A stretch of DNA of 64,000 nucleotides from positions 32,648,001-32,712,000 of the forward strand of contig OX637394.1 in NCBI GenBank assembly GCA_951799425.1, read 5' to 3'. Numbering within the stretch: the first letter of the stretch is position 1; every line of letters starts with the position of its first letter. This DNA is from Ilex aquifolium. Its lineage: Eukaryota > Streptophyta > Magnoliopsida > Aquifoliales > Aquifoliaceae. The position numbers and the translations under genes were made by a program. Positions 4,454 through 61,787 of the stretch are shown piece by piece. A model generated the notes under the pieces. The model was not told where the DNA came from. It was given only the letters and a program-made list of their open reading frames with translations, and did no database searches.

Positions 4454-4592
4454 CTACCAGGAGGAGGCGGTTCTGTTTGTGTTCTATTGGTAGGAACTAT
4501 GGTTCTACAGGTAGGAAGCTATTCTATTTGTGTTCTACCGGTAGGAACTATAGAACGATATAAGAGTATTCTGCCTGGTGATGTACTGGTAG
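4454..4592. repeat. CTACCGGTAG palindrome array, copy 1
   Basis: Copies and near-copies of CTACCGGTAG start at 4454, 4484, 4505, 4535 and 4583. The best is the near-palindrome GTTCTACCGGTAGGAAC at 4532-4548. Start distances alternate 30, 21, 30, giving a 51-bp repeat. The same word and nearly the same spacing occur at 61598-61787. Confidence 0.75.
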
Positions 4593-4696
4593 GACTTATA
4601 TCGATACAATAGGACAAAATTTCTATTTTTATGTGGAATCCTCTAATCCTCTACGCGTTCACCACTCCTTAGGCTTTCCAAAACATTGAGTGGGGG

Positions 4697-5644
4697 GAGT
4701 ACTTGCAAAGAACCAATGAATCCTCCTATTCCAATAGTCCTCTTGTCTTAGAAATGACTCATGATTGTACAAAGTACCTTAACTTTGCTAGATGCATCCA
4801 ATCAGTCAATAAACAATCAAAAGATAAAGCATTAAGCATAAATAAAATGCACAAAAATAACTTCCGAATGGTTTATACTTGTCCATCACCTCTTACTAAA
4901 GAGTGAATGAGAAACTACTCACTCTTCATGACTTTGAGAAAGCTAGAAAAGTGAGTGATTCTCATCCTTCAAAGTAGAGGAGGTAAAAGATACAATACAC
5001 TACACAATAAGCCTATCTTCGACGAAGAATGAGTGAACACTACCCACCCTTCAAGGCTACAATAGAGCTAGAAAGGTGAGATAGTTTCACTTCTCTAAGT
5101 GAAGAAAGAAGCTTTACAATGGAAGCTAATGAAACTAATAATGAAAGTAAAAGAAAGCTAGTTACATTTGGAGGGTTTCTTCCTCTTCCCAAGATTTTTC
5201 CTTACTAGCCTTGAAGGGAAGGTATTTATAGGCAAGGAGGAGGGGGTAAAAATACAGATCCAAGTGCTTAAATTCCAAGTGAATGCCAAAAAATCCGGAT
5301 GGAAATCGAATCATACTGCAGCTTGTCTGGGGATTACGTTCGAACGTGTAATGGCGTTCGAATGTGGAGTCTTGTCTTCTTTGATGGGCGTTCGAACGCT
5401 GACTGGAGTTTGAACATAATACTCAAGTGGTTTTTGTCCTCCACAGTGAAGAGCTGCAACATGCCACGTGTCATCACCCCTAGTAAGCTCCTGGGGGTCA
5501 TCAATTAATTCAAGATGGCGTTCGAACGTGGATTGGCGTTCGATCGCTGACTGGAGTTTGAACGTAAAGCTCAAGTGGCTTTTGTCCTTCTCAGGGAAGC
5601 TGCAACATGCCACATGCCATCACCCTAGCAATCTCCTGGGGTCC
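4697..5644 (-). repeat. Athila A-type LTR fragment
   Basis: This is the reverse complement of the middle of element A's LTRs (compare 33080-33830 and 47160-48080). The TATA box region reads CCTATAAATACC on the minus strand (TATAAATA at 5230-5223). CGTTCGAACG sites lie upstream of it at 5337, 5355, 5389, 5407, 5519, 5537 and 5555 (some degenerate). Both LTR ends are missing, and no gag or pol of this copy lies beside it. It may be where the LTR at 5645 inserted. Confidence 0.8.
5337..5564 (-). promoter_or_regulatory. CGTTCGAACG array in LTR fragment
   Basis: Sites start at 5337/5355, 5389/5407 and 5519/5537/5555, each step within a group being 18 bp. Group spacing is 52 bp (5337 to 5389) and 130 bp (5389 to 5519), the same values as in the LTRs of element A. 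The nearest site is ~105 bp upstream of TATAAATA (5230-5223, minus strand). Confidence 0.8.
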
Positions 5645-7464
5645 TGCTTGATCCGTTTTGACCCTAATCTCCGACCATGATTCTAGTAATGTATATGTGA
5701 CTTATACAGTTAGGTGAGTGTCACTCTCCCTCGGATATCATGCAAGAAAAGGGGAAAACGTGTGTGTGGAATGAAAATGTGCGTGTGCAAAAGTGCTCCC
5801 CAAGCGAAGAGAGACTTTCGAGTGTCATGTTTTACTTGGAATTAAGTATTCCAAGGTCGTCTCCTCAGGGAAGGAATGTTAAATTGTGTGAAGATGATTT
5901 TGTAAAAATAGAAAAGTGTAAAATCTAGTAAATTGGTGTTTGGGTGAGTGAAGATTGTTGGTAAAATGCAATAAAAATAAGGTTGGCTAATCCGAAGAGG
6001 TCATTCCAATGGGAGTACCAAATCAACTCAATTCATTCAACCAATGGTGCCTAGGTGCTTGATTGATTCGTAGGAAGTGAGGGACTAATGTGGAATGTAG
6101 GCTCAAGCATACCCCGTGACAAGTCTACGATGTATCAAGAGCTCACAACAACGTCTGCACTCAACCTAGTCAAATCAAGCACTTTACACTGCGAGGTAGA
6201 ATGGAGAAGAGTTGATTTAGCATACCCAAGAGGAAGTTCCCCTTGGATTAACCAACAAAAAGCTTAGCTACTCATGTTTAAAGTAAAAGAATTCATAATG
6301 TAAAGAGACATGTAGATGAAATGGACTGAAAATAGAGATGAAATGAAGCTTAGAACTTGTATTAAATGCAAAGTCATACATGATATGAAGAAACATTGTG
6401 AAGAGATGAAGATTGAAACTTGTATTAATGCAAGAAAAGTTAAACTACAAAGAAGTGCATTTAATACCCATTTGAAAAGCTTGAGAGGAAAAACTTAAAT
6501 ACAAACATGGTAGAATCTAGAATACATAACTAAACTTGCAATACACTTGAAATAAATGACATTAAAGTGCATTAAATGAAGATTACAAGAGGCTTACAAC
6601 AAACTACAAGTGAAATGGGTAAGAAAATGTAAAAAAAAAAAACTTCTCTCTCTAAAACTGTCTACTTCCTTGAGCTTCTCTCTCTATAATGCAGAGTAAT
6701 TAGTCTAAAATGGTGTAACTCCCTGCATTTTCGTCTATGAGGCCCTATATCATGTGTGTGTAGGTCTCCCATCAATAGGGTAGCTGAGTTGATGGCTTGG
6801 ACAGGCTAGGAAAAGCCTAGCCTGCAACATCCCAGACTTCCACCTTCTCTCTCATCCTCATTAATGCATTGGCCTCCAAAGTACAACCTTAAGTGTAGGG
6901 AGGCATGTATGTATATAGAATGTGTCAGGGGACAAGTGGGAGAATCATAAGTGAGACCTCCAAGTGGCTGAGCTTGAGGTACAGATGTCTGACATTTCTG
7001 GGCAAAACCTTCTGGCAGGTCGATGCAATCCTTCCGAAAGGTTTTGGCAGAGGCAGAGGAAAAAGCTATCCAGTATGTCTAACCTTCTGGAAGGTCGATA
7101 CAAACCTTCCGAAAAGTTTTCTTCCAGTGTGCAAAACCTTTCGGAAGGTTTTGGCAGGTAGAAGTTGTCCAGTGTGCAAACCTTCCGGAAGGTCTATGAC
7201 CAAACCTTCCGGAAGGTTATTTCCTGATTTGCCTTTTTCTTGATTTCTTCACCTTCCAAGCCTCCCTTTAAGCCACCCCTCATCTCCATTGAATTTGAGC
7301 ACTACGATGGGGGCTTAACTCAACCATTTCCAACTCTTTGTCTACAATCACACAACAACATCATTAATTGTTTGCTTAATTGCATTTCCTCCCATTTCCA
7401 CCACAAAAAGCAAGTATAAAAGGGTATAAAAGCATACATAATGTGCAATATTTTGTGCTAATCA
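5645..7464 (-). repeat. 3' LTR of element C (1.82 kb)
   Basis: On the minus strand the LTR begins TGATTAGCAC at 7464, just after the polypurine tract, and ends in CA at 5645. The U5 portion matches the LTRs at 290-998, 3043-3185 and 24928-26540. U3 holds the CCTTCCGGAAGG array (7008-7216). A weak TATA-like GATATAGGG lies near 6750 on the minus strand. Its left end abuts the Athila A-type LTR fragment. Confidence 0.75.
7008..7216 (-). promoter_or_regulatory. CCTTCCGGAAGG array in U3 of the element C 3' LTR
   Basis: Sites start at 7008, 7030, 7083, 7105, 7137, 7181 and 7205; those at 7181 and 7205 are perfect 12-bp palindromes. Pairs are spaced 22, 22 and 24 bp, and the first two pairs repeat at 75 bp. 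Spacers such as GGTCGATRCAA are shared with the internal array at 9356-9464. Confidence 0.85.
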
Positions 7465-7778: not shown

Positions 7779-8962
7779 CTACTCGTTGTCCTCATCTCCA
7801 GCATCATCGCTCCCAGGCTCACTCTCATCACCACCCTCCTCCTCGTCATCATCATCATTGTCTTCGCCGGAGCCTCCCACCTCGACAACTGTAGAAGGTC
7901 CAACCAGAGGCGGCGGAGGTCCATTGGGGATGGGCTCGCCCGGAAAGGTATGCTGGAAGATCTGAGTCACCATCAGTGAAAGTCCATGCATCGTAGTCTC
8001 CAGAGCGTCCAAACGCTGAGACACAGTGCGGACCGAGGCTGAAGTAAAAGGTCCAGAAGATGATGGCCCAATTGAGAATTGCTCAGGCCCCGAGGCACTA
8101 GCTCTCTCACCCCCAGTCCTTGCTGCCCTCTTACTACTACTCAATTTCCCAATTGCACCAGTCTTAGGGGGGAGCAACACATCATGTGCATAGGCCTTGA
8201 CCTTGCAATGGGAGCACATCCTAGTGACGAGGTTGGCGAAGGGGAGATTCACCTTCGGCTTTGCAGCCTGAGCGAACTCCTTCATGAATTCCTAGATCAA
8301 AAGCTCCACATCCATTTGCTTCCCTGTCATGAACGCATGTAGAAGTGCGAGCTTCTCCACATTAGGGTTCTTCTTCGCACCCCTAAGACTCAGATTATAG
8401 TGTAGGATCTTGTACATGACCCCGTAGGAATGCTTGAGGCCACCGACTAGAGTGTTCCCCTTGAATTTGGTTGGGTCCTCGTAGGTGAGCTGCACATACT
8501 CAGAGAGTGTTTTACTCCCTTCGACATTGTGTGGGTAGACCGGGGTATTAGGGGGAGGCCTATGGTAATTCAACAGGGTAGCAATCATATCCGGGGTCAC
8601 GTCAAATGTCTTCCCCCTCACATTCGTCCTAAGAATCGAACCATCCTCGCCTAACAACATCAATTTCCTATAAAATTACCTACGCAACGCCAAGTTATAG
8701 TCATTAACCGGCTCAACCAAAATCCCCAATCCATGCCCCTCGATAATCCTCACCACCTCGTTATTTGGCCCAAGAGTAATCTTATCCACAAATCTCTCAG
8801 ATTTGACATTTTTCTCATTTATCCTTTGCTTGCGAGCATTATGCCTTGCTTTCGTCCTCCTCTCTGCCCTATCTCCACTACTTGGGCCCTCCACACTCCT
8901 CTTGTGGGAACTAGTGCCCATGGGTTGTGGGGAATCGAGACCGTACGTTTGGTGCGGGCCAT
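7779..8962 (-). pseudogene. ORF3 of element C (broken)
   Basis: Homologous throughout to the intact B1 ORF3: MARTK start at 8962, a SERFVDKI-like motif, NVRGKT, the GGLKHSYG segment, RLDALE and a Glu/Asp-rich tail. It is broken by about one missing base shortly after MARTKRT, a nonsense codon just before FYRKL (near 8674) and another before EFMKEFAQ (near 8292). Otherwise the frame is preserved, so the damage is recent compared with element A's copy. A palindrome array and a TATA-like sequence lie 360-500 bp upstream. Confidence 0.8.
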
Positions 8963-9319
8963 GAGAATCAATAGTGCCCCAAAACCCAAAATCGTCAAAA
9001 ACCACAACAAGAGTTGCTCAATGGGCTCAAAAACATCGAGGGAGATCCTATCCATGCGAACCATTGCAATGGAGTTCAAGGTTTTGGAGAAGATCAAAGA
9101 GAACTTGAGAATTGGGAGAAAAGAGAAACCTAGGGTTTTAAAGGAGAACTCCAAGAAATTTTGGTAGAATTCAAGTAATAAACAACCCTAGCTATGGAAG
9201 ATGGAAGGTTTGGATGGTGGGTGAGAGATCTTTGAAGCTTGGAAGAGATTAGAGAGAGAGAAGAGAGTTTGGGAGATTAAGATTTGAGGGAAATGTGAAG
9301 AGTTTCTCGAAAAAATTGA

Positions 9320-9464
9320 ACTTAAAAACCCTCGTTTTTAGCCTTCTGGGCAAGACCTTCCGGAAGGTCGATACAAACCTTTCAGAAGATTTTGGCAGAA
9401 GCTGAGTCAAAAGCTGTCTAGTGTGCCTAACCTTCCGGAAGGTCGATGCAAACCTTCCAGAAGG
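9320..9464 (-). promoter_or_regulatory. Internal CCTTCCGGAAGG array and TATA-like box before ORF3 of C
   Basis: Sites start at 9356 (perfect), 9378, 9431 (perfect) and 9453, with a degenerate one at 9342. Pair spacing is 22 bp and pair period 75 bp, exactly as in the 3' LTR of the same element, with shared spacer GGTCGATRCAAA. On the minus strand GGCTAAAAACGAGG follows, at the place where element A has GGGTATAAAAACC. This looks like a second promoter for ORF3, now with a weakened TATA box. Confidence 0.7.
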
Positions 9465-15651: not shown

Positions 15652-18219
15652 TGTAACATCCCAAAACACACCCTGGACGGCATTACATTCTAAAACCATT
15701 CATATCATGAGAGCACTAATATAATCCCTTAAGAAACAAGACTTCAATTGTCATCCACGAATATTTACAACATTATCCAAAAGAATAAGCCCAAGTCATG
15801 GCTATTACATCTCAAAAATTAATTAAAGAACGCAGCGGAATAAACAAAAGAAGCTAGACTACACAACGTTCCAAAAGAATGTCCTAGTCTAATACAAAAG
15901 GAAAGGAGGTCGCTCTATGCGTCCACCTCAGGATCCACACTCCCGTCCAGTGGAGTCTCCTAAGTAGCGGGCTCCTCGAACCTTACGTCCTCCTCCTCAA
16001 GCGGGTAATCTGAAAAATGTTAGCGATAGGGGGTGAGCACGAAGCTTTGTAGAAAAATTCTCCCAAACCCATACAAGGTTTAGCAAAACATTTAAAACGG
16101 TCGGTCTCAATTTTTAACATAACATAGATACATAATTTGAAATAAAGCAGTGACATTTAAAAAGGATCTCAAGTTTATTTAAAAACATTCCTTAAATGAA
16201 TAAACGGGCACCACATACAAATAATAACCATTAATTAACATAACCAATTCTCAACTATTCTTTCGGTAGGTGGCATACTTTGTGGTAACCTCCACCCCCC
16301 TTTAGGTCATCTTTGATTCTCAAGCATCCTTACCGGGAACCTCTTGAGAATGGAGGAGCATCCTTACATGGAACCTCTCACCAATCACTACATTGTTTCC
16401 CAAGCATCCTTACCGGGAACCTCTTGGGAAGGGGTGATCATCCTTACATGGAACCTCTCACCAATCACTACATTGTTTCCCAAGCATCCTTACCGGGAAC
16501 CTCTTGGGAAGGGGTGAGCATCCTTACAAGGAACCTCTCACTCATGTGCATCACAAACAACCCAACCCAAGCATACAATTCCAACATTTATCTCAATTTA
16601 CAAGCATCTATCCAAAATCCCCAAAATATATCATGTAACAATTCCACAACCAACTAAGAAAATACATGAGATCACAATAACATCATTTTTCTACCCAACA
16701 CAAAGCACTAAGGTTTCGAAATCCATAATAAAGAAAGCATTTAGGAAGGAAATACATCACTCTCCAAAAATTAGGGTTTTAAAACTAGAAAGGAGATTTC
16801 ATGGCTATTAAACCCTAACTTTGTTTAAAACATGTAATCCTTGCAAAAAGCCTAAGAGAGAATGATTTCATAGCATATATATACCATTGATAGCCAAAGC
16901 ATACATATATAAATATCCTAGCCTCAATGTAAGTGAATGAGAGAAAACTCCTACCTTGAATCCTTAGCTTTGGTGTGAAGAACAAGAATATTTGATCTTG
17001 AATCACCCTTGAATCTCTTATTTTTTCCCTTCCTTTCTTCCTCTCTAATACTCTCTAGGGTTCCAAGAGGTGTGGGGGTGTGAGGGGAGTGAAATAAATG
17101 AGGGAAAATGAGATGAAAATGAGTTTAAACATAGCAGCCCCGAAAAACACTGTTCACAGGCTGTTTTGGGTTTCTCCAAATTTACGGTTTTGCTACTAAG
17201 AATCTCCAATTTGATCCATATGACTACCCTAAGGTTTTTTCGACGTTCCGGATTCATTTTTAATGTTATTTTAACCTAAAAATATTTATTTTTATGATTT
17301 ATCTCAAAACCAAAGTCAACGTACACCCGAAACACTAAAATTTCTATTTTTACCCATCCGAACCGGCTATTAATGAAGTTTTGCGATGTTTGTAAATAAA
17401 AGGTGATGAAGGGTGCTTATTAAAGCCTTTTATACTTATTTGAAGCCTAAAAATACTCATTATTCTTATATTTTGATTTAGGATGCAAATAGAGACGTTA
17501 AATGCAAAACGAAGCTAATTGGATTATTTCAACATTGCTCCGTTATCTGGGCATAACTCTCTCATCCGAGCTCCGATTGAGATGATTCAAGATGATATGG
17601 AATGCTAAGAAAGAGATATAAAACTTTCATGTTTTGAGTTGTGAGAGATATTGACTGAATCAAGGTCTAAATTGGGCTTGAAGTTGCAGCCAGTGCACTG
17701 TTCACGTGCACTGTTCAAGCTAATTGAACTGTTTTGACATTGCTTCGTTATCTGGGCATAACTCTCTCATCCGAGCTCCGATTGAGATGATTCAAGATGA
17801 TATGGAATTATAAGAAAGATCTCTACAACTTTCATGTTTTGAGTTTTGAGAGATATTGACTGCATCAAGGTCGAAATCGCGCTTGAAGTTGCAGCCAATG
17901 CACTGTTTACGTGCACTGTTCACGTGCTGTTTCATCCCTTTTCCATTTCCAATCCATTCCTAAGCCAACCAAATCCATCTCAAACCTCTCCAACACATAT
18001 TTCTACACCAAACCTATTTAATACAAGTTCTAGGACCTAAAATTTCATATTTTCACTTATTAAAACTAAATTTCAACTATTATTTCCACTAACATTTTAA
18101 ATCTCTATTTTTTCAATCTACCAAATTCAAACACACATCACTACACATATCCACATTTTTACAACAATTATTTACTATATATCTATATACATATATAAAA
18201 GAAAATGCGGGGTGTTACA
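15652..18219 (-). repeat. 3' LTR of the nested chromovirus
   Basis: 2568 bp, TGTTACA/TGTAACA ends. It contains three 80-bp tandem units (starts 16322, 16402, 16482; AAGCATCCTTACCGGGAACC) and two ~200-bp units (about 17515-17705 and 17720-17925). The latter contain GTGCACTGTTCACGTGCAC, i.e. G-box CACGTG next to GTGCAC. No paired palindrome array of the kind seen in the other LTRs is present. Confidence 0.93.
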
Positions 18220-18220
18220 A

Positions 18221-18238
18221 TCCACCCCCCTTAAAGAA
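18221..18238 (-). other. Polypurine tract of the nested chromovirus
   Basis: The minus strand reads TTTAAGGGGGGTGGA directly before the 3' LTR. A near-identical tract is at 63864-63876 by the LTR at the right edge. Confidence 0.8.
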
Positions 18239-18299
18239 AGTTTCGTCCTCGAAACTTACCTCAAATAGCGAACAAATATGGATACTTCTCCCGCATTTC

Positions 18300-18707
18300 T
18301 TACTCCGGTTCCCATGTAGCTTCCTCCACTCCATGGTGTTGCCACAAAACCTTCACCAATCTGATAACTTTGTTGCGAAGCACTTTTTCCTGGGCATCGA
18401 GAATTTCTACCGATTGTTCTGGGTAGGTTGCTCCGCCTTGAATTTCAATCTCCTCCAAGTTCACAACTGGAGTTGCATCCGAGTGACACCTTCTCAACAT
18501 GGACACGTGGAACACGTCATGTACTCCGGATAGCTGGGCTGGTAGTCGAAGTTGATATGCCGCCTTGTCTACCGCTTTGATTATCTCAAACGGTCCGGTA
18601 TATCTTGGCGCTAACTTGCCCTTATTGCCGAATCTAAACACTCCTTTCTTAGGCGACCCAAATCCACATACATTTTTCCAACGAAATAATTTAAGAAAAA
18701 TTAACAT
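18300..18707 (-). pseudogene. Integrase C-terminus and chromodomain
   Basis: Residues read FGNKGKLAPRYTGPFEII and LSGVHDVFHVSMLRRC, the C-terminal module of chromovirus integrases. A chromodomain-like end follows (VEILDAQEKVLRNK, VKVLWQHHGVEEATWEPE). Chromodomains direct integration to marked chromatin. The catalytic core and everything upstream to protease are missing, and the frame degenerates near 18690 into the minisatellite. The remaining module looks intact. Confidence 0.85.
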
Positions 18708-18769
18708 AATATCATCGAAAATACCATTTTATTGGTCAATACCAATCGTTAGAATTTTGAATTAAGGAA

Positions 18770-19665
18770 CAAATAAATAATCAAGCTTTGGAATCAAGAA
18801 CAAAGTAACAATCGAGTCTTGGAGTCAATAACAGATGCATATCAAGCTTTGTAACCAAGAACTAAAGAGTATCAAGTTTTGAACTCAAGGACAAGGAGAA
18901 ATCAAGTATTAAAATCAAGAGCAATTGAATGTCAAGTCTTGAAATCAAGAACCAATGAATATCAAGTATTGAATATCAAGAATAAATTAATCACAAGGGT
19001 TAGAATCAACAACAAATGAATATTAAATTTGGCTATCAAGAACCAATGGATCATCAAGCCTGGGGAAATTAAAAACAAAGGAACAACCAAGTCTTGAAAT
19101 CAAGAACCAAAGGATGTCAAGTATTGAATATCAAGAATACATGAATTACAATAGTTAGAATCAATCAAATGAATATCAAATTTGGCTATCAAGAGCAAAT
19201 GAATATTAAGCTTGGAAATCAAGAATAAAGGCGTATCAAGCTTGAAATTCATGAACAAAGAAGAAATTAAGATTTAACGGAACAATCATGTATGGAAATC
19301 AATAACAAACGACTATCAAGGTGTGAAATCAAGAACAAAGGATTATGAAACTTAGAAATCAAGACCAAAAGAACACTCAAGTCTTGGAACCAAGAATAAA
19401 GAATATCAAGTATTGAATATTGAGAATAATTGAATCACAAGGGTTATAGTCACTACCAAGTGCATATCAAATTTAGATATCAAGAACAAATGAATATTAA
19501 GCTTGGAAATCAAGAACAAAGGAACAATCACTTCTTGAAATCCATAACAACGAATATCAAGCTTAGAATTAAAAATAAGGAACAATCAGGTATTGAAATC
19601 AATAACAAACAAATATCAAGGGTGGAAATCAAGAACAAAGGAGAAATCAAGAGAAAAACACATTT
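18770..19665. repeat. Degenerate 'ATCAAG...AATCAAGAACAAA' minisatellite
   Basis: About 0.9 kb of ~30-40 bp units built on TCAAG(T/C)(C/A)TTGAAATCAAGAACAAAGGA. A higher-order pattern is visible: TCAAGTATTGAATATCAAGAA recurs near 18961, 19119 and 19397. It stands exactly where RT, RNase H and most of integrase should be. Confidence 0.8.
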
Positions 19666-19720
19666 CCCTTGAAAACTAGGGTTTGGTAGCAAGCAAGGCG
19701 ACTTAAGGGTTACCCAACCA

Positions 19721-20266
19721 TCACATTATTTTCCACATGGCCTTAATTTCAAGAATAGCAAGAATCAAGGATTGGATAGCATACATATAACATTTAGAGT
19801 CAAAGAAATACATATAAGTAAACCTACTGGTAACTGAAGTGTAATCCGCTTGCACGTAACCCTTACAGACCAGCCTGGTATCCCCCTGTTCTCTCGCAGG
19901 CAAGTCAACATATAAAGCATGTTCTAGCTCCTCGAAACCCAATCCCAATTCCACATCATCCGCAGTACGTATAAAAGAATGAGTCGCATAGGAATCCAAT
20001 AAAATTCGGGCCCAAGAATGGTAGAGAAGAACAATACCTTCCACAACGGCGATGGAGGTATTTTCCTCCGGTTGACTCAAAGCAAAAACCCTTCCTTGAT
20101 TGGCGCCGCCGGGGGCATGAGCTTGTATCGGTCTCTGTGGTGGTAATGACTGTCGTAGCGGTGGCCTGTTTGCATTCACTCGTCCAGTTGCTTGGTTGGT
20201 CTTGGTGGAAAGCAATGGACAATTATCTTTGAAGTGCCCAACACCTCCACAGGCAAAGCATCGGCG
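19721..20266 (-). pseudogene. gag zinc knuckle 2 and protease remnant
   Basis: On the minus strand a CCHC knuckle CFACGGVGHFKDNC (about 20251-20228) leads into a Pro/Arg-rich linker, then ARVFAL-like GRVFALSQ and the protease motif LLDSYATHSFI. The family has DSGATHSFI, so the catalytic DSG is DSY here. The frame continues ~60 residues into the protease fold and then loses similarity. Frameshifts separate the knuckle from the protease frame. Confidence 0.8.
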
Positions 20267-20407
20267 TGCATCCGTGCCAACTCTCTCTGGTACGCCTCTC
20301 GCTCCTCGAGCTATCTGAGGTCTCTATTGTGCTAGCCTTTGTAGAGGTGGCTTGTTTGCTAGTACTTGCTCGGTTGCTTGTTTGGTCCTTGGGGGAAACG
20401 AGGGGCA

Positions 20408-21432
20408 TCTATGTTTGAAGTGCCCATACTCTCCGCATGCAAAGCATTGGCGCGGGTCAATGCTTGTTCTAGTTTGAGTCACTTCATCTCCTCAAGCTGT
20501 CAGAAGTCTCTGTCCACCTGCCTGGTCTGGACTTCGGTATGGTGCTACTCGCTGCACTCCACTGGTGCTAGGGTCCGTCCTGATCGGACCTCCTCTCGCG
20601 AAGCTCTGTCGCCGCTGGCTGTCCTCTATATCTCTCTCCACCAATGCAGCTTGGTCAACCAGGTCCCCATACTCTCGGATCTTGAGGGCCACCAACTTCT
20701 CCCAGAAGACAGGCCTCAATCCCTGCTCAAAGCGTTTGGCCCTGTCGGCCTCAGTAGATATAAATCCCGTAGCATAACGGGAGACCTCGTCAAACCTCCT
20801 CTCGTACTCGGCCACCGTTATACTGCCCTGTCGTAGTGTAAGAATCAGCCTTCATTCGGTCTCTGACCGATTCAAGGAAGTAATTATCTTGGAAAAGTTG
20901 ATCGAACTCTTCCCAAGTGAGTGCATCGGTGTCCCTCCGTCTCTTAACTGAATCCCACCAATAGTCGGCCTCCCCCTCTAACAAGTAGGTCGCCAAGTCA
21001 ACCCTCAAGTCTTCGGCAACTCCCATGCCGTCACACACTTTCTTCACCCGCCATATCCACCTATCCGCATCCAAAGAATTGGAGCTCCCTTGGAAATTGG
21101 GTGTACGTTACCTCAAGAATTCCCGAAGAGCTATCATCCTTCGGTCTCCGTTCCCATTGCCTGGTACTTGAGCAAGTGGATGAGCTCCACCATTATGGTT
21201 ATTGTTCCCATTTTGGTTTTGTACCAAAGTGGTGAGCTCCCTCAAGCATTGATATATGCCATTCAAGGCATCGGGAGGTGGCGGTGGTGGTGGATTAGCT
21301 TGACCTCCACGACCACGCCCACATCCACGTTCACGTACACTTCCACGTTCACATACACGTACACGTCCACGTTCACGTCCACGTCCTCGTCCTCGTTCAC
21401 GTCCACGTCTTCGTCCTCGTTCACCGTCCATT
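20408..21432 (-). pseudogene. gag of the nested chromovirus
   Basis: Starts at ATG 21432 (MDGERGRRRG) with an Arg/Gly/Glu hexamer-repeat region, then a poly-Pro run and the N-terminal gag segment to REFLR. After a shift near 21107 it resumes as DADRWIWRVKKV...ADYWWDSVKRR...TWEEFDQLFQDNYF. After another shift (~20800) it resumes as the retrotransposon gag core (AEYERRFDEVSRYA, RAKRFEQGLRP) and ends with zinc knuckle 1 (CFACGEYGHFKHRC, about 20438-20412). Two zinc knuckles, here and at ~20240, with similar Thr/Ser/Lys linkers (NRASTSKQAT and NQATGRVNA) suggest an internal duplication. Confidence 0.85.
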
Positions 21433-21600
21433 TTGCACATCAATATACAACTTAGTTCATTGATGTACAAAACATCCCACTATCACTTTAATCTAAAACA
21501 TAGGACCTGTGAAAATCTAACTCAAGAATTTTTATCCAACCTAGTCCTAAGGCTCTAGTGGTGATCCATAACCTACAGCTCCCATGTAAGACGTAAAGCC

Positions 21601-21615
21601 TAGGCTCTGATACCA
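21601..21615 (-). other. Primer-binding site, initiator tRNA-Met
   Basis: The minus strand reads TGGTATCAGAGCCTA, complementary to the 3' end of plant initiator tRNA-Met, 4 bases (AAGT) after the LTR end. Confidence 0.93.
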
Positions 21616-21619
21616 ACTT

Positions 21620-34378: not shown

Positions 34379-34384
34379 AGTTTT

Positions 34385-34402: not shown

Positions 34403-34486
34403 ACCAAAAGGTTTTTTAAAGTAAAAGGTGAAAAAACATTCATTTGTTGTATATATTTTTGATTTACTGTATATAATTCTCATTTT

Positions 34487-39130: not shown

Positions 39131-39499
39131 TGCTGAATCTTTTCTGTGGAAACCTATCACATCTGAGTTAATAGATGATGATCAAAGTTTACAGAGTTGC
39201 CCTGTTCATGCTGTTGGGACATGGGCACCCTAATTTGAAGAACTCTCACCAAGTGGTACAAAGCCACTCTCATCAAGTGTCAAGCCACCAAAGCTTGAAT
39301 TCAAACCTCTCCCAGCTGACCTAAAATATGCATTCTTAGGGGAGGACGAGTCATACCCAATGGTCATTTTATCTAAGCTTGCAAATTTGCAAGAGTCTAA
39401 GATGATTGAAGTCCTTAGACGCCATAAAAGCACCATTGGGTGGACCATTGCTGATTTGAAAGGTATAATCTCATTAATCTATAATCATGCTATATACCT

Positions 39500-42893: not shown

Positions 42894-43187
42894 AAAGCGA
42901 AACCACTGTGTGGCAGAAGCACTTTTGCTAAACGTCGTCATGTGAAAAGACTTGGTGCATGTAAACAATGTGGTAGGATCTTTCACATGAAGGAATATAA
43001 TCAGTGTTCTAATCCAATTTCTGGTCGCACACTTGATCGATTAGATTGGATAGTGTATGGGCAGAGTAAGGATTTTCCTGAGATGTCATACTATACCAGT
43101 CCTGTATTTACACGTTATGTGCAACAAGAAGTTAGAAGAGTCACTGATTGTTCGAATGACATGGAGATAAGACAAGACTCGGATTAG
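42894..43187 (+). pseudogene. Small Cys- and Arg/Lys-rich frame of unknown function
   Basis: An open frame of ~97 codons with no ATG at its start. It reads LCGRSTFAKRRHVKRLGACK then QCGRIFHMKEYNQC, then DRLDWIVYGQSKDF and a polar end. Four Cys and two His in the first 45 residues, with a basic KRRHVKR cluster, could form a zinc-binding nucleic-acid-binding module. It is not one of the standard pol domains. It may be an exon of a spliced product, since no start codon is present, or a captured host fragment. I do not recognise the family. Confidence 0.4.
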
Positions 43188-43466
43188 AATGCTTTTTGAC
43201 AAAGTTATGGAAAATCATGTTTTTTATGAAGGTTAATGGTCCGAAATTTTTTGTAAAAAATGTAAATGTCTTTTTGTTTAATGTACAAAATCTTTTTGTT
43301 GAAATAAAGATGTGGGCCAAGTAAGGAATGTCCTAAAATACCAACGAAGTTGTAGCGTGGGTAGGGACTTATCCTGAGACGCCATGATTTTCCAAGTTCA
43401 ATTTGTGCATATAGTCTTCTTTTAATATGTTTATATAAATGTGTATAAATTTTGATTTTGATTTGG

Positions 43467-43777
43467 CGTTCGAATGTCAGTTCACGTTTGAACTCCAGGA
43501 GCTCAGAGTACTTTGGCTTTTGCAGAACATCAAAAGTACTGAGAGGACCCCATGTTCAAATGCCTGATGAACGTTTGAACTAGGACCCCACATTCGAACT
43601 TCATCCTCACGTTCGAACTAGAGGAGCTTACAATACTTTGATCTCTGTAGGACATCAAAAGTACTGGAAGCAATTGTCGTTCGAACGACAGTTTAACGTT
43701 AGAACCTTCTTTTAAAATTCCTTCTATCCTCGTTCAAATGTCAGTAACATTCGAACGTTGGCTGCTTGGGTATAAAA
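43467..43777 (+). promoter_or_regulatory. Internal CGTTCGAACG array and TATA box before ORF3 of A
   Basis: Sites and near-sites start at 43467/43485, 43553/43572, 43591/43610, 43678/43697 and 43732/43748, pair steps 16-19 bp. 43678 is perfect. TATAAAA follows at 43771-43777 in GGGTATAAAAACC. The ORF3 ATG is ~212 bp downstream. The same word is used in both LTRs of this element. Confidence 0.75.
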
Positions 43778-43988
43778 ACCTGGTTCGTCTTCCCCACTTC
43801 AAAACAACCCAAAACCCTTCAAGTTCTTCAAACCCTAGATCGCCCTTTCACTACCCAAGCCTTAAATCCTCATCCCCTTTCATTTTCTACCCAAAATCAA
43901 GCATCTAAAACACATTTCCATATCCATTTCTCACATTTTAACCAAGAAATCCAACTTTTTCTTGCCCTTAAACCTCAAAAATCCGAAA

Positions 43989-45068
43989 ATGCCCGCTAGG
44001 CGAAAGGCAATCAACCAAGAACCTAACATTGTGGAGAAGGTGATCGATCAAAGGAGGGGAGGCCACCATTGGTCCGAAGGCACGATCGAACTCGCTTCCC
44101 CAGTGCTCTAAAGGCCGATAGGTACGAAAATTTCTTTCAAAACCAAGCCATTATTTGTGAACGTACCGTTGAATTGTTGGATTTTTGTGGAATTGGGAAT
44201 TTATGCAAATATGGAGGTGAGAGGTTGGATTATGTATTTGAGAAATGGTGGTGATGCGATGAAAGAATTGGTGAAGGAGTTTTACTCCAATGCCAAGATT
44301 GTGAACGGGGCTATCAAGACATATGTGAGGGGAGCTCACATCAACGTGGACGAGGATTATATTGTGGAGATGAGGGTCGTACCACGAGTACCAAGGCCCA
44401 GCTACCCCCCCCCCCCCGATGAGGAATGTGGAGATGGACGTGGTTGGTGTTGAGTTGAAAGGATTGTCGACATTTGCTTGGGGAGGAAAGAGGTTCTTTA
44501 GGCAAGGGGAGTAGACAGACAAATAAAAGATGCTCAATTTGATTGTCGTCTCGAACCTTGCCCCCATTGGATGCAAGAACGAGATCCTTTCGGAGATGGC
44601 TTGATTGCTATATGTTATAGGTAAGAACCAAAGCATAGACCTCCCATACTTGATACTGACTGAGATGATGAAGGGATGTGATGCAAAGAGGAATTCACTC
44701 CCCTTCAGCACGCTAGTGACAGAGATATGCTTGGATTCGGGAGTGAAAGTTAGGCCAGAGATGGGGGTGCTCAAGCCAATGGGATCTTTGAACAAGGTGT
44801 CATTCTGAAAGAGCCAAGGCCATAGCGGAGGGTCAGCGGCAAGGCAAGATGTGCCACCTGCCCAAGGCACCGATGAAGTTCAAGATGCCTTGGACACTGA
44901 GGAGGAGAGAGAAGCCCATGCAGAGGCTCAAGCAGAGACCAGCAGCCGACGGACACTACGAGATATCATGCTTGGCATCGAAGCTAAGCAAGATGAGATT
45001 CTCCGATAGCAAGAGGAGATTCTCCATCTTTTGAGAGGTGGAGCTGGAAGACCTTCAGGCTCTTGAGA
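43989..45068 (+). pseudogene. ORF3 of element A (decayed)
   Basis: Starts MPARRKAINQEPN at 43989. Fragments in changing frames read MKELVKEFYSNAKIV, TYVRGAHINVDEDYI (the VRG motif of the family) and LTEMMKGCDAKRNSLPFSTL. The end is Arg/Glu-rich and near 45068. Many stops and a 12-C run at 44406-44417 that shifts the frame. Same family as the B1 and C copies but far more diverged, lacking their acidic tail. Confidence 0.65.
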
Positions 45069-46870
45069 GGTGAGAGAGTGAGAGTGATTTTTGTACTTAG
45101 GGATTGTTGACTGTTTGTTGTTTTTGGATAATCTAAGTCTTTGTGTTTGGAACTATGATATTTTGTGAAATGAATGATTTAGTTTTATTATATTTATCTT
45201 CTTAGATGCATGTGTTAGATTTAGCATTATATTGTTATTTACTAATGATTGATGGAACAGATATAAATATTGAGATTGCTTGCTAAAGTGACTAAGCACA
45301 TGATTGATTTGACACCTCACCTAAAAATCTAGACTTAAAACCACGTTTCCTTGAAAAATGGTATTTACTCTATGCTTACATGTCAATTGTACATTGGTAT
45401 TTGTTATTCTTAAAGTGCAGAATAACCAGGCTTGAAAATGGAATTGATATATAACAGACATTCTTTGAAAAACCTGACATAACCAGTGGAGATAACAAAG
45501 AATATCATGGTAAGTTTTTGAGTCTTGCGATGCTTTTAAGAGAAAATCAATATTTACTCAAGAAAGGTTTTTTACCTTCTATCCTTGAATAATCTCATTA
45601 TTATTGCTTTGATTGACGCAAATAGAGCAGTCTATTGATGTATCCCACAAAGAATCTGTTCATACCACAAATACATGTGCACATGCTTGAGAAAGGTTTT
45701 TAGGTCATCTGTTGAATTTTTTGAGCTTTATCTATTTCTTTTCATACATAATCCCTTGTCAGCCATGATTGAGCCTCAAAATGATAATTCTTTTCAGTAC
45801 AACCATGACTTTGACCAAGCCAAAAGAACTGTGAATCCCTACCTGGGTTATCTAATTTTATTTCATAGTTTCTAAAAGGAGGGCTTCCTCGGTATGAAAA
45901 AAGAGAAGAAAAGGGCAACCAAAAGGGTAGAATGAAATAAGCAAAGAAAGAGAATACAAAAGAAATCAATCTAGTCAAAGAATTGTGATTTGAAAGAAAA
46001 AGAGAATGAAATGAAAAGAGAAGAGAGCACGAGTAATTTTTTTCCAAAGACAAAGATGAAGACAAGAATGAGGGAATGTGCAAAACTATAACCAAATTGG
46101 ATAACCCATTTTGAACTTTTTGTATCCTTCATTTCATTAACCACTTACCCCTGGCCACATTGCAACATGGAAAAAGCCCTAATTGATCTCAAGTCTGATG
46201 CATGTGTAGGTAGTCAACCGAAAGTTTGGGGTATGTTAATAGTATTACTTTATTTGTATCAATATTCTTCCATGAGATTATGCCAAACATGATTAGTCTG
46301 TTTCCTTAGATTTCACTCCCGTAATAATTGTGCATGTGAATTTACAATTAACCTTCTTCTGATCACATGACCTTTGAGATAAAAGTCACAATAATCGAAG
46401 AGAATTTTTGTTGAGAGCATTCTAAGAGAGGTTTGTGAAATCAAAGCTATCAATGGAAGGTTGTAAAGAGGAGTGTTTGTTATATAATAATTCTTGTCGC
46501 TAGAATAATTGTTCTTACTACATAGGGAATTTCAAATACCAATGTAACAAATGTTTATTTTTGCATAGAGTACGTACCTATAAAAGAAAAGTGTTTGGGA
46601 GACAAGTCAAAATTGAGGGTTATGTGTCTCAACGATCATAGTGCTAACTCACTCTGACAAGAGATCTCACATACGCACATCTGTTCGACTGAAGTTTGTG
46701 GGTAGCTTTACTGGAAACCCTCACGAGACAACACTCGTCCACTAGGGGAAACTTAGGGGTTTAACAGCTTGTTGCATATGCTAAATGCAACCAGATGACC
46801 TACGAAAATGGCATTGTAAATAGTTTTTCATTCAATTATTGTTGTATCACTAGGGACTAGCAATATTGAG
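45069..46870. other. Non-coding block before the 3' LTR of A
   Basis: AT-rich; no coding capacity recognised. 45765-45850 ('ttgagcctcaaaatgat', 'tttgaccaagccaa') resembles the post-pol blocks of element C (9800-11345 and 13640-15060), but lies after ORF3 rather than before it. Confidence 0.5.
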
Positions 46871-46881
46871 GTTGGGGGGTA
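46871..46881 (+). other. Polypurine tract of element A
   Basis: GTTGGGGGGTA immediately before LTR start TGATGAATAG, preceded by CTAGGGACTAGCAATATTGAG. Confidence 0.85.
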
Positions 46882-48634
46882 TGATGAATAGTAAAAATTA
46901 GCATTTTTCCATGCTTTTATAAGACTAATTATGCTTTGATTGAGTTTCAATGATAACATTCCATGCTTTTATAAGACTAATTAGGCTTTGATTGAGTTTC
47001 AATGATAACATTTCAGGTAAAAAATTGTACAAGGGCCTAAGGTCAATAAACATCAAACTTTCATGCAACAGCCACGTGTTCTGGAAGAAAATTGGAGGAA
47101 GAGCAAGCAAAGTATCCATGTTCGAACGCCAATTAACGTTTGAACGCCCATCTTGAAATAATTAAGGGCCCCTAGAAGATTTCTAGGGTGATGGGACATG
47201 GCATGTTGCAACTATTCCCTGAGGACGACAAGAGCTACTTGAGTACCACGTTCGAATGCCAATGCACGTTCAAACGCCCATCTTGAATTATTTGAGGACC
47301 CCCAGGAGATTGCTAGGGTGATGACACGTGGGATGTTGCAGCTCTTCACTGTGGAGGACAAAATTCACTTGAGTATTACGTTCAAACTCCAGTCAGCATT
47401 CGAACGCCCATCAAAGAAGATAGGACTCCACGTTCGAACGCCATCACATGTTCGAACGTATTTCCCAGACAGGCTGCAAAATGGTTGGATTTCCATCCAA
47501 ATTTTGTGGCATTCACTTAGACTTTAAACACTTGAGTCTGAACTTTTACCTCCTCCTCCTTGCCTATAAATACCTCCTCTTTGGACTTGTAAAGTGGAGA
47601 GAGATCTTTTGGAAAAGAAAGAAATTTTACTTTCATTATTAGTTTTATTAACTTCCATTGTAAAAGCTTCTTTCTTCATTTAGAGGAGTTAAACTCTTAC
47701 ACCTTTCTAGCTCTCTTGTAGCCTTGAAGGGTGAAAAGTGCTTCACTCATTCTTCGTCGAAGATAGGCTCATTGTGTAGTGTATTTTATCTTTTAAACTC
47801 CTCTACTTTGAGGAATGAGAATCACTCACTTTTCTAGCTTTCTCAAAGTCATAAAGAGTGAGTAGTTTCTCATTCACTCTTTAGTAATAGGTGATGGACA
47901 TGTAAAAATTATTTGGAAGTTATATTTGCGCATTTCGTTTATGCTTAATGCTTTATCTTTTGATTGCTTATTGAATGATTGAATGCATCTAGCAAAGCTA
48001 AGGTACTTTGTACAACCATGAGTCCTTTCTAAGATAAGATGACTATTGGCATAAGAGGATTCATTGGTTCTTTGCAAGTACTTCAGATAGATCTTCATGA
48101 CTACATTTCAATATTCACTATTATTGTGCTTCAACTAAGAATGGAATACTAACACAGTGGTTGGATGACTTGTAGAATTACTTACTTGTTTGTAGATGGG
48201 TTGAGTTCTAACACTGACAATTCTTGTAAATCTCTACAAAGACATCGGAATCATGCTCTTAATTCCCACAGTCCATCTTTATCCTTCAATTAACTTGCTG
48301 TTGACATAGGGGTTAATTGAGTTCTCAAGCACAAATATAACAACCGAATGATTGACTACATGTCCATATCCTCAAGCTAAAAGGTGACTTTTATATTTGA
48401 TAGAATATTATATTTTGTCTAGAAAATCCCTTTTGAGAGAATCTTATATTCTATTCAGGAAATTCCATAAACATCATAACTTCAAATCTCAAGGGTTTCA
48501 GTCACTTTGAAATCTGTCACTATTTACTCCAAAACACCAACATTAGTTCCTTTTGGATTCAACTCCAGATTTAACCGGATTATAACTACAACTTGATTGT
48601 CTGCACTTGAGTGTACACATTTCGGATCAAGTCA
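46882..48634 (+). repeat. 3' LTR of element A
   Basis: 1753 bp, TGATGAATAG...TCAAGTCA. Compared with the 5' LTR it has a 52-bp tandem duplication (46909 and 46961) and one extra 130-bp array unit. CGTTCGAACG-type sites start at 47119/47137, 47249/47267, 47379/47397 and 47431/47449. TATAAATA is at 47575-47582. The reverse strand of 47874-48098 has an open frame shared with the fragment at 4703-4906, probably by homology only. Confidence 0.93.
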
Positions 48635-57984: not shown

Positions 57985-58965
57985 ATATATTAATAGTCCC
58001 TCTAGTATGCTCTTTATGTTAGTTTGGTCCCCCAATCTTTGAATTGTGGGTTCATCAACTTCTCAATTTGTGTCACTTTAGTCCAATCGAAAACGACAGT
58101 TTGAATTTTCTAATAGAGATTTTCACGTGACCACACTTGAGAGGTCACTTTGGTCCCTCAAATTTGTAACTTGTATCATTATGGTCCTTCAGGTTTATAA
58201 TTTATGTCACTTTAGTCCCTAAAGACTGAATCATTAACCGCTATGAGAGTCAGCTTCTTCAATCCTTTGAAACTAAGGAAAGTAAAGTGATAGCCGAGAC
58301 CCAAAGATCTCCTATTTTTATGCTTAAAGAGAGTCAAGGGGCCTAGCGAGCAGTTTAGCTAGATCCGAGCTACTCATACGCTGTCTAAGTTCCTACTCTT
58401 GGTGTAATAAAAGCTATTTGGGCTCTTTCACTCCTAAAATGAAGACAGTGAGCTTGCTTTGCCAAAGAATATGTCTTACGCAGTTACTCTGATTAAACCA
58501 CGGGGAAGGGAAGGTACGAAGCCTGATTGACCTAATAAGTATTGTCATTTCTCAAGATGAGACAGTTGGGATGGAACTTGAACAGGGTTCATTTACAAAA
58601 GTTTGAGAATCCAACCTGCTGCTGTGGGAATAGTGCCTCACATCGACTTTTTGCCATTGAATCTGAAAGAAATTATAAAAAGTACTAAATTCCTTTTAAG
58701 GAAAAAATCAATAGGAGAAGATAGACACACCGACGCACAGAGAATAGGGAGCTGCATTGGAGACGAAGAAGGGTAGAAACTTACATACTTCTTTACAGCT
58801 CTAACCTCAAGTGTGATTATGTGAGATGCATGTAGCGATCTCTGTTAGTAAATTTCAACTGCTTTCGATTGGACCAAAGTGACACAAATTGAAAAGTTGA
58901 AAAACCAAATTGACACAATTAAAAGAGTGAGAATCAAATTGGCACTTACCAATCAGGTAATGTCG
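57985..58965. mobile_element. Long inverted-repeat element with internal non-repeat cargo
   Basis: Left arm ~57995-58125 (CAATTTGTGTCACTTTAGTCCAATCGAAA) and right arm ~58845-58960, its reverse complement with mismatches (GACCAAAGTGACACAAATTG), ~110-130 bp each. A second 'TCACTTTGGTCCCTCAAATTT' string follows the left arm. The ~600 bp interior (58230-58830) is not repetitive within the window. Ends and target duplication could not be fixed. A MULE-like or other foldback element is likely. Confidence 0.55.
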
Positions 58966-61597
58966 CATCTTCTGTGCTACGAACATGAAAGCGAGGCATT
59001 CCTTTTGAACTGGTTATACCGGTGTTCTGCGGCAACCATCATTCGACTTAGGTGATATAAGAAGTCCAAAATAGAATGCGAGTAATAAAAGGTATAGATT
59101 TGAATGAGGCAATAATGAATAAATTGATGAACGTTCTTGAAAGAAATCCTTATGTTCAATTCTTAAGAACATTGAAAGATTTTCCTTCTTCGAATAATTT
59201 CAAAATTCATATTACAAATGATATATCAAACTAAATTAACGAGTTTATAACTCCCCTTCAGCAAACCAAGTTGCATCTATATGGATTAAAGAGAATAACC
59301 CTAAAGTGCTTTGCTATAGAGAGATATCATAGTACATGTACACTTTGGACGCAAAATATAGAGGTAAACATTACTTTGGATGTTACGATCCTTTATAATA
59401 TCTCCTATTATTTCATAAAGAGAGGTCAGATAGATGACATCAAAATATCAAAAGAAAAAATGGTGTGGACAACAATAATGATCTTGATATTGATTTGCTT
59501 TGAATAATGTAGTTACTTCAGTCAGTCAATTTTGAAATATTATTAAAGAATTCAAATTTTGATTGATTAAATATCATAGTTTATTGAGGACATAGATTTT
59601 CGGAAAAAAAGTGATCCATAACTTTAATAGACATATTCCACTCTTAACATGATCAAGTATGTTGGTCCACGTGCAACGCATGTGTGCACCAACTAGTGTC
59701 TACTAAAATTACCACTTCTCACAAAGATTAAGCAAAGAATGTGAGAACCCCTTTAGTCACCACAATCCAATTTATGATGACGATTGATTTTAATTAATCT
59801 TCAACTGATCCACTCAAAATTAATCTCATGGCGATCCCTAATCCCAAAACAAAATTGCACAACTATTTATGGATGAATAGTCAATCAATTAAATCAACAA
59901 ACACATAGTGTGAGAGGAATACAAGCAATTTGTTGACGCGGAAAACCCTCATTAGGAAAACTACAGGGAACCTTCTCGGTTCACCAAAGCCTAATCTACT
60001 ACTCCCTAAGTCAACATACAAGTACCCCGAGAGTTATACCTCAACCAACACTATGGTTAGATGCTCATTTCCTTACTATGTTTCTTCGCCAAATGTCCCG
60101 CTTCGACGTCTAGTATAACTTCACTTAGACCTCCCCACCGCATGGTTTGTCTAAGCTTTGAGCGATTATAGGCATGCGAACAATCCTTAATATACACACA
60201 ACAATAAGTTTATCAAACCATCAAGATCTTCAACTTCAATTTGTAAGGTTGGGTAGAATCTTTAGTGGTAGCCTTTGGATCTTAAAGATTTAGGTTGTGG
60301 TAGAAGCTCTTAAAAATGATTTTCTCTCTTAGAAATCTCACTAGAGGCTTAACCCAGGTGTGAGAAAGGCTCTCTTTATTTATAGGTCAGAAATAAGAGT
60401 AGTTTTAGTAAATAAGAAAACTCAGATTCGTGAATGACTGCTCGATCGGTGAGAGGGTTGTTGTCACTAGAATTAAAACAATGTTTCAAACACGACTAAT
60501 GCACCTACCGCTAGAGTGAGCCCTATGCTACCTTCTTTGACCTTTTCTCATTTCCTTCCCTAAGTCATAAAGAGACCGCAATAGTGCAGGCTAGCGAGTA
60601 TAGATCGATCCCTATAGGTTTTTAAGCATAAAACCATACAAAAACTTGTTCTCCTTAGTACTAAAGGGTGTTGCTCAAAGAGGGGTCTGATTGTGACTCA
60701 AACTATATTTTTAAAACTCATAAATGGTTTAAAAAATCTTTCTTTTTTTAAAAAAAATACCTAGGCGTCAAAATCGAATTGCTTCCAATTCTATATTCAT
60801 CATAATCAACCCAAGTTAAAATAACTAAGGGTTCATCTTAGGTGTCTAGGTCATTACTTAGTCTTAAGCATGAAGGTGCATACGGAGGTTGAATGATGTT
60901 ACTCTAACGCTTGATCTCCTCCCTTTAATGACACTTTCAGATCTTGAACTTGATAGCATCATGACCATGTAATAGGTTAAGATTTTATAATGGACTTCAC
61001 GAAATTAGTTAATTACAAGTATAATCTAACATACTCGATAAATTCAAAACATGTGTTCAAACTATGGCAAGAAAAACGGCAAGAGTTATTAATTGACCTT
61101 GAAATTAGGCCCAATTGGCTCCCGCAGAACTTGTATAAGGCGACAGTGCCACGCCAACACCCTAGTGTCGTAGAGGTACCCAATGTTGCGGCAAACACAC
61201 TATGCCACGGCAGGCACCACGTATTGTAGGAAGCGTCAAGCACTGCAGAAGGGCATGACACATCCTCCATGAAGCCCCTAAAATCGAGGGTCCTTTGTCG
61301 ACCTGTTGATCACCCATCAACCCACGGAAGTATCCATGAATGCCGCAAAACCTGACACCACGACAATAACATCCCCTTCACTGGGATCATAAACAACACA
61401 GTGTTTGGGCAGAGTCTCTTTTGTATCGGGCACTTCCAAACGCGTAACCTGTATACATTTCTATCACTTGACCATTCCAAGGTCCAACATACATCAATTT
61501 GCCCTTAATTTTACTCAATTTACATCCTTTGGACAAAAGGACTCAAGGGCCAGAGGCTTGACATAATTATTTTAAATTTCTGAAAATTTAAGAGGAC
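58966..61597. other. Unassigned region
   Basis: No gene recognised. 'tttgttgacgcggaaaaccctca' at ~59930 resembles sequence common in plant LTR elements, and 59740-60300 may be part of a decayed LTR. The rest is AT-rich. Confidence 0.35.
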
Positions 61598-61787
61598 CTA
61601 CCGATAAATAATTAACGTTCTACCAGTAGAAAAACCTTCTCTGGAATTCTTCTACTAGTAGGTAAACAACGTTCTACCGGTAGAAGAGCCCACTGGAATT
61701 CTTCTACCGGTAGGTAATCAATGTTTTATCAGTAGAAAAGCTCTTTAGAACGTTTCTACCAGTAGATAATCAATGTTCTACCGGTAG
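61598..61787. repeat. CTACCGGTAG palindrome array, copy 2
   Basis: Eight sites start at 61598, 61620, 61652, 61674, 61704, 61726, 61756 and 61778; those at 61674, 61704 and 61778 are perfect. Every pair is 22 bp apart, and pairs repeat at 54, 52 and 52 bp. The array lies outside the adjacent LTR (61958-63860), in the sequence that LTR inserted into. Confidence 0.9.

Follow-up and report, generated by a model that had tools for sequence, protein, structure and literature searches.

Previous work showed that Sireviruses, which are Ty1/copia retrotransposons, carry palindromic RM boxes before the TATA box of the long terminal repeat (LTR), and that more such boxes lie at the 5' side of ENV (Bousios 2010, PMC2829016, in the sections cited here). 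In VANDAL DNA transposons, the element-encoded VANC proteins read short, family-specific motifs arrayed in non-coding DNA, and protein and motif change together (PMC5735166, in part). Here we describe arrays of palindromic words in a 64,000-nucleotide stretch of Ilex aquifolium DNA (GenBank assembly GCA_951799425.1, contig OX637394.1, positions 32,648,001 to 32,712,000, forward strand), hereafter the window. The arrays lie in LTRs of Ty3-type retrotransposons and, with the same word, ahead of an extra open reading frame (ORF) of these elements that matches Pfam family PF20167. The initial annotation of the window had proposed an element-encoded reader of family-specific words on the VANC model and knew of no equivalent for LTR elements. 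The Sirevirus boxes, as described in the cited sections, are such an equivalent; the PF20167 ORF behind the same word, which that annotation had not seen, supplies a candidate reader.

Results

Four perfect palindromes, CGTTCGAACG (the A word), CCTTCCGGAAGG (B), GGTACCGGTACC (C) and CTACCGGTAG (D), are present in the window in 15, 4, 1 and 4 exact copies, respectively, and with one to three mismatches allowed they form the arrays of Table 1, one of them weak. The exact and mismatch scans agreed in placing the four words, as arrays in repeats, where they had first been reported. The individual sites cited in the initial annotation were also located, but many are mismatched (two mismatches at 33169 and 47379, one or two at 26219 and 61652). 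In the 800-Mb genome, CGTTCGAACG-N8-CGTTCGAACG occurs at 7,903 places and its reversed control at 0. We sampled the genome at 20 round coordinates, taking 10 kb at each (200 kb, or 264 kb with the window); exact copies of CGTTCGAACG, CCTTCCGGAAGG, GGTACCGGTACC and CTACCGGTAG were found in 5, 1, 1 and 2 of the 20 stretches, and the reversed-word control GCAAGCTTGC in none. The window's words form arrays in these stretches as well. A strict scan of the 264 kb, which required three or more identical copies of a 10-mer within 300 bp and flanks less than 60% alike, returned 11 palindromic clusters, all 11 belonging to the same four words, and 51 non-palindromic clusters, 36 of which were register shifts or extensions of those words by manual count of the listing. 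An earlier, permissive palindrome scan of the sampled stretches had also picked up many AT-rich palindromes. Several of these were dropped for failing the independent-flank scan, as was TGGGCGCCCA of sampled stretch L013, where the permissive scan gave an array of TGGGCGCCCA-like sites at 5439-5838 with steps of 18, 21, 33 and 39. CTATCGATAG in L023 was rejected as an additional word, its neighbours being read as decayed CTACCGGTAG, and the minus-strand TATAAATA of L014, on the wrong side of its array, was not counted.

In 13 of 13 LTRs measured, a selected set that omits L004 (TATA box altered) and the B-, C- and D-word LTRs, the last palindrome ends 40-117 bp before the TATA box. The order of array and TATA box first reported is thus seen in the measured LTRs, but no TATA box was found downstream of the array in the window's B- and C-word LTRs. 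The arrays are real promoter features, and their description as promoter-proximal and built of two-fold symmetric words is borne out. The arrays are very probably the sites at which a sequence-specific DNA-binding protein of two-fold symmetry acts on the promoters.

The word of the LTR recurs before the PF20167 ORF of the same elements, clearly in five lineages and weakly in a sixth. One copy per lineage was fetched beyond the ORF to look for the LTR word. LTR and internal words agreed for A (window; L050, L051), B (window), C (L024), Pm (L034 with L045) and Ps (L027 with L047), and weakly for L006, a relative of Pd. The Pm LTR (L045) has four exact CGTCCGGACG at steps of 23, 58 and 23, followed 64 bp later by a TATA box; the Ps LTR has GCGC-N4-GCGC at L047 1864 and 1915; and the C word in L024 lies both ahead of an ORF like P0001, the intact PF20167 ORF of the window, and in the LTR. 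L006, whose ORF is broken, has a single imperfect site ahead of that ORF and a pair of sites in its LTR. The stretch fetched for Pd (L040) ends short of L040's own LTR and contains an LTR of chassis F (see below). Separately, L013 7820-8289 matches the Ps-type LTR of L047.

In window elements A and B the PF20167 ORF is positioned downstream of integrase, and the internal array of element A lies about 230 bp ahead of the initiating methionine. The distance from the last palindrome to the internal TATA box is 13, 13 and 13 bp (A), 12 bp (Pm) and 11 bp (Pd), versus the 40-117 bp of the LTRs (n = 13). As a prediction test, we took from the CGTTCGAACG-N8-CGTTCGAACG listing two cases of paired LTR arrays separated by about 12 kb, and fetched the 5 kb in which the extra ORF was expected. 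Both elements had internal CGTTCGAACG arrays (10 and 6 sites), a TATA box 13 bp later, and then a PF20167 ORF, which is open to one stop in L050 and broken in L051. The internal and LTR arrays of C are duplicates (92% over 92 bp), as are those of B (82% over 125 bp). The arrays of A match over only 38 bp, and those of Pm over 40-51 bp, partly in reverse orientation; with matches this short, the word was kept there without its surroundings.

The PF20167 search yielded 6,661 candidates at first look and scored and listed 150 of them; 20 of the 150, picked for variety of length and score and blind to arrays, were fetched with 1.1 kb upstream. Upstream regions of 14 of the 20 passed the array threshold, versus 17 of 220 background tiles. 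After five more loci were added, three of them known beforehand to have arrays, 17 of 25 passed (Fisher 2e-11 for the 25), the effective number being smaller because copies within a lineage are related and the 20 loci comprise five lineages. The Ps word GCGC-N4-GCGC is present at least twice in 7 of the 11 Ps upstream regions and in 0 of the 220 tiles. Among the matches listed were many places with an identical 377-amino-acid Pm open frame and equal score, suggesting a recently active lineage with an intact extra ORF.

Ratios of nonsynonymous to synonymous substitution (dN/dS) were 0.14-0.49 for Ps (21 pairs), 0.14-0.40 for Pd (3 pairs), 0.29-0.31 for Pg versus L035 (4 pairs) and 0.45-0.81 for six close Pg pairs. 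The PF20167 ORFs evolve under constraint, with purifying selection in two lineages. The encoded proteins have basic N-termini and C-terminal stretches of helix-like heptads, read by eye as coiled coil; P0001 and the L024 protein have acidic tails. A protein-database search found one relative (P0002) for P0001, the same one again for alignment A2, and no relative for the L034 protein.

As first claimed, the words differ between families, and they differ between protein lineages. Word distance was correlated with protein distance across six lineages (Mantel r 0.45 and p 0.0056 from 720 permutations; when Ps was given an arbitrary code, r 0.51 and p 0.002). The half-words CGTTC-CGTCC-CTTCC-CTACC-GTACC form a chain of single symmetric changes, for which the chance probability is 0.0003 (five words with central CG) or 0.0015 (best five of six); TGATC, GCGC and GTGAACAGTG lie outside the chain. 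The L050 protein is nearest to Pm (41%) and then to Pd (35%), whose word is one symmetric step off.

A layout common to all the words, with steps of 18, 22, 52, 75 and 130 bp, had been proposed. The steps are instead family-specific: 17-19 and 34 bp for CGTTCGAACG, mostly 20-24, 30-32, 40-44 and 49-58 bp for the CCGG words, and 12-16 and 31-32 bp for GTACCGGTAC. The 52-, 75- and 130-bp values are mostly sums or duplicates; in the CGTTCGAACG LTRs the 52- and 130-bp recurrences reflect homologous copies of one LTR plus a 130-bp tandem duplication, with 52 = 34 + 18. The distinct steps of the pooled CCGG words are phased at 10.5 bp (R 0.55; 0 of 5,000 nulls reach that), in a test whose steps were typed in from earlier outputs and in which tandem-duplicate steps are not independent. 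By half-word, the phasing p was 0.015 for CTTCC, 0.003 for CTACC, 0.011 for GTACC, 0.004 for GCGC and 0.16 for CGTCC, and the distinct-step test gave no helical phasing for CGTTC (CGTTCGAACG, p 0.30) or TGATC (TGATCGATCA, p 0.42). Helical spacing, and with it the idea of a common spacing grammar, was therefore kept for the CCGG-type words only.

Different words were also found on one and the same LTR chassis. Chassis E (LTR start TGTAACACCCC) has the A word in the window (37567), L010 (3173), L020 and L024, the Pm word at L010 4693, the C word in L014 and a GTGAACAGTG module in the window element at 15652-24186, and the word modules lie between alignable sides. The two homologous LTRs of L010 (3173 versus 4693) differ by a symmetric change from CGTTCGAACG to CGTCCGGACG at the same place, two of four sites being exact in each. 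Chassis F (TGTGACRCCCC) has the D word in L020, L048 and the window (61618) and, decayed, in L023; it has the C word in L007 and no array in L019 and L008. Chassis G has the B word (window 7008) or the C word (window 26001), and the two LTRs are 70-73% alike past the array. L021 has A-word sites, with no match of at least 45 bases to the chassis-E reference, and matches the start of the L014 LTR. Over 79-116 bp, the chassis-E module with the A word is about 70% alike to the internal promoter of element A, closer than to A's LTR, and this hints that the module may have been captured from that internal promoter. The LTRs had been called unrelated, which is correct for arrays in different chassis but not for others, which sit in homologous LTR copies. 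The two-fold symmetry of the words and the change of word on a conserved LTR fit the earlier suggestion of a symmetric dimer with a changeable DNA word.

The features of the window, with the loci and words of the surveyed lineages, are collected in Table 1. The array carriers have Ty3-type gag and integrase/RNase H Pfam matches together with PF20167; the name Athila is a probable assignment from our reading of the integrase and from the cited sections of PMC11728184. Element A harbours a nested chassis-E LTR. The LTR of P0001 is closely similar to B's LTR but without the U3 part. The internal part of the chassis-E element at 15652-24186 is about 3.4 kb, has a gag/protease piece only and gave no PF20167 match in Pfam. 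At the promoter position of its LTRs (17512-17922, 23479-23889) are 205-bp tandem repeats with GTGAACAGTG/CAGTGCACTG, perhaps another word module. Two copies of a 473-bp tandem repeat (31807-32754) lie directly ahead of element A. Between integrase and the internal array of element A is a 97-amino-acid frame (42894-43187, plus strand) with a weak, below cut-off match to Viral_NABP, and L050 has, by eye, a similar cysteine-rich frame at the matching place. Outside the array carriers, a 570-amino-acid open frame (49546-51258, minus strand) is presumably a plant gene of the multicopper-oxidase (SKU5-like) type, and we take a 564-amino-acid open frame (54158-55852, plus strand) to be the C-terminal part of a long interspersed nuclear element with RNase H.

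Table 1. Window features and PF20167 lineages (lineages are located by locus).
Feature	Location	Strand	Remarks
Element A, Athila-like Ty3 (probable)	32880..48634	+	LTRs ~32880-34378 and 46961-48634; self-BLAST, Pfam
Element A gag (PF03732)	34829-35311	+	Pfam
A-word array, element A 5' LTR	33039..33248	+	6 sites, 5 exact; TATA 106 bp past last site (~33355)
A-word array, element A 3' LTR	47119..47458	+	8 sites, 1 exact, rest decayed; TATA 106 bp past last site (~47565)
A-word array, LTR fragment of element A family	5337..5564	-	self-BLAST, site scan
Internal A-word array, between integrase and extra ORF	43467..43757	+	TATAAAA starts 13 bp past last site (~43771)
Degraded PF20167 (Transposase_32) extra ORF of element A	43989..44805	+	in pieces; 44112-44450 and 44605-44805 match Pfam
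Nested chassis-E LTR	35816..38092	-	A-word array 37567-37696; TATA 53 bp downstream
Chassis-E element	15652..24186	-	LTRs 15652-18219 and 21620-24186, 96.5% alike; promoter part is 205-bp repeats with GTGAACAGTG
Internal B-word (CCTTCCGGAAGG) array	9356..9464	-	upstream of B extra ORF
B extra ORF	7782..9017	-	three stop-free pieces; related to P0001
B-word array, chassis-G LTR	7008..7216	-	
P0001, intact PF20167 extra ORF	1329..2510	-	394 amino acids from Met; basic N-terminus, acidic tail
C-word (GGTACCGGTACC) array, chassis-G LTR	26001..26305	-	
D-word (CTACCGGTAG) array, chassis-F LTR	61618..61789	+	
Weak D-word array	4482..4546		site scan
Lineage Ps (MSSKRQRG type)	L025-L033, L041, L044		GCGC-N4-GCGC, often as GCGCCTAGGCGC
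Lineage Pm (MAPPRAS type)	L034		eight CGTCCGGACG sites, then TATA, then ORF
Lineage Pd (MDLRQRP type)	L038-L040		a pair of CGTCCGGACG-type sites 20 bp apart, followed by TATATAT
Lineage Pg (MAGGTAG type)	L036, L037, L042, L043		TGATCGATCA in AT-rich repeats
Lineage Py	L035		at best one GATCGATC

Discussion

We propose that the palindromes are bound by nuclear proteins that are sequence-specific, probably homodimeric and encoded by the elements themselves, in the PF20167 ORF between integrase and the 3' LTR, and that each lineage's protein would read its own word. Arrays upstream of the LTR TATA box would drive genomic RNA, and internal arrays, upstream of a second promoter, would drive the extra ORF. 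The protein would act back on the promoter that drives it and on every LTR carrying its word, and would activate transcription, lift silencing or do both, an effect that we chose by analogy with VANC (PMC5735166, in part). Short elements without the ORF, such as those of chassis E, may adopt a word belonging to one lineage or another and thereby borrow the protein that goes with it. We put the probability that the PF20167 protein is the reader of its own element's word at about 0.58; DNA binding, dimerisation, activation or anti-silencing, and borrowing are the steps that we infer.

Several observations weigh against this proposal. Six of the 20 upstream regions were below the array threshold (L026, L028, L029, L030, L035 and L040); four GCGC-N4-GCGC are present in L026 and two CGTCCGGACG-like sites in L040, L028 has an LTR-like insert upstream of its ORF, and L029 and L030 have no site at all in their upstream regions. 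There is no array in the 900 bp upstream of P0001, and we found neither a PF20167 partner for the D word nor, within 4.5-5 kb, an LTR array matching Pg or Py. The Pg word TGATCGATCA sits in AT-rich tandem repeats and was kept as weak. The internal promoters of B, C and Ps lack a clear TATA box at the 11-13 bp distance, and since the internal and LTR arrays of B and C are homologous duplicates, their agreement in word could be due to copying alone. Common descent of whole elements can likewise yield a correlation between word and protein. As to the protein itself, fold prediction of P0001 with four more rows gave a mean predicted local distance difference test score (pLDDT) of 34 and was not used, and a search of solved structures gave no relative, only 3 weak matches (best E 0.11).

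The words might instead be host transcription-factor sites adopted for different expression niches, with the PF20167 protein having another role (envelope-like, particle or RNA). LTRs commonly carry host-factor sites, as in Tnt1, Tto1 and ONSEN; CCTTCCGGAAGG contains TTCnnGAA, which we take to be the core of a two-unit heat-shock element; and the words are common to several LTR chassis. In addition, the function of the Athila 3' extra ORF is open, and the ORF is often called env-like (PMC7264820 and PMC11728184, in the sections cited). We nevertheless consider the host-factor explanation unlikely, given that at least five distinct words differ between element lineages and track the PF20167 lineage, and that, wherever arrays were seen at both places in a lineage, the one ahead of the ORF itself has the same word. 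Nor does a fixed set of host factors require a chain of single symmetric changes.

It is improbable that the palindromes act as nucleic-acid structures, that is, as cruciforms, or as RNA hairpins that attract small interfering RNAs or aid RNA dimerisation, a role suggested for the LTR palindromes of maize Sireviruses. A hairpin depends on its arms being complementary and does not call for one word to be kept in different LTRs and internal promoters, the arrays hold a fixed place before TATA boxes, and the steps of the CCGG words gather near multiples of 10-10.5 bp, which suits faces of DNA; these points outweigh, in our opinion, the ability of two palindrome copies to pair mutually and the designation of Sirevirus LTR palindromes as small-RNA mapping hotspots (PMC5311732, in part). 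Neutral tandem duplication of short segments in a fast-evolving U3, with palindromes by chance, is very improbable: tandem duplications are indeed present (the A LTR has one of 130 bp, L048 one of 42 bp and 61609-61793 one of 52 bp), but copies have unrelated flanks, 9 distinct 8-base spacers occur among 16 CGTTCGAACG pairs of the fetched loci, the same word is in different chassis, and the 7,903 genomic places contrast with none for the reversed control.

Returning to the PF20167 protein as reader, a wider generalization is tentative, and we hold it at somewhat under even odds: PF20167 may be a large family of dimeric DNA-binding retrotransposon proteins, each with a palindrome that has diversified one symmetric change at a time; within one genome they would form self-feeding circuits, insulated from one another, between which gene-less elements rewire themselves by swapping the word module on a fixed LTR. 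The role of extra ORFs in plant LTR retrotransposons is an open question, and a word shared by the LTR and the ORF promoter would give each protein a specific target. If the proposal is true, one genome would contain, side by side, several protein-word pairs from a single family. These would form a natural series for following how DNA-binding specificity and its sites change together, and would offer a view of how gene-less elements switch helpers. VANC-like self-recognition would then extend from DNA transposons to Ty3 retrotransposons.

How does this system compare with those described? In VANDAL elements and here alike, the motif differs between protein lineages. Unlike the holly palindromes, the VANC21 and VANC6 motifs (YAGTATTAY; AGTTGTCC/AC) are non-palindromic and in a single orientation, as given in the cited part of PMC5735166, and VANDAL is a Mutator-like DNA transposon whereas the carriers here are LTR elements. 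Grande gene23 and other plant Ty3 extra ORFs resemble the PF20167 ORF in lying between pol and the 3' LTR and in encoding a nuclear protein, here a predicted one, from their own promoter; gene23 is antisense, however, and the cited sections report no promoter word shared with the LTR (PMC7264820). The sunflower Athila extra ORF also has PF20167, a 3' position and a predicted nuclear signal, but its function is left open and no DNA word is given in the cited sections (PMC11728184). In the literature searches made and in the cited sections of these sources, the link between word and protein was not found in print.

The closest precedent is the Sirevirus palindromes (PMC2829016, in the sections cited). 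These too are multi-copy, and their words are specific to the family and mostly have CGG-CCG at the core; they lie close upstream of the TATA box in the LTR, and the additional boxes 5' of ENV in ENV-containing members parallel the boxes found here upstream of a gene after pol. The carriers differ, being Ty3 elements, probably of the Athila type, with PF20167 rather than Ty1/copia elements, and the cited sections do not describe agreement of both promoters in one copy, an internal TATA box at 11-13 bp, a word-protein link or chassis swaps. In sum, what is new here relative to Sireviruses is the Ty3/PF20167 setting, the fixed internal TATA distance, the agreement of words within a copy, the association between word and protein lineage, and the replacement of one word by another on an LTR chassis.

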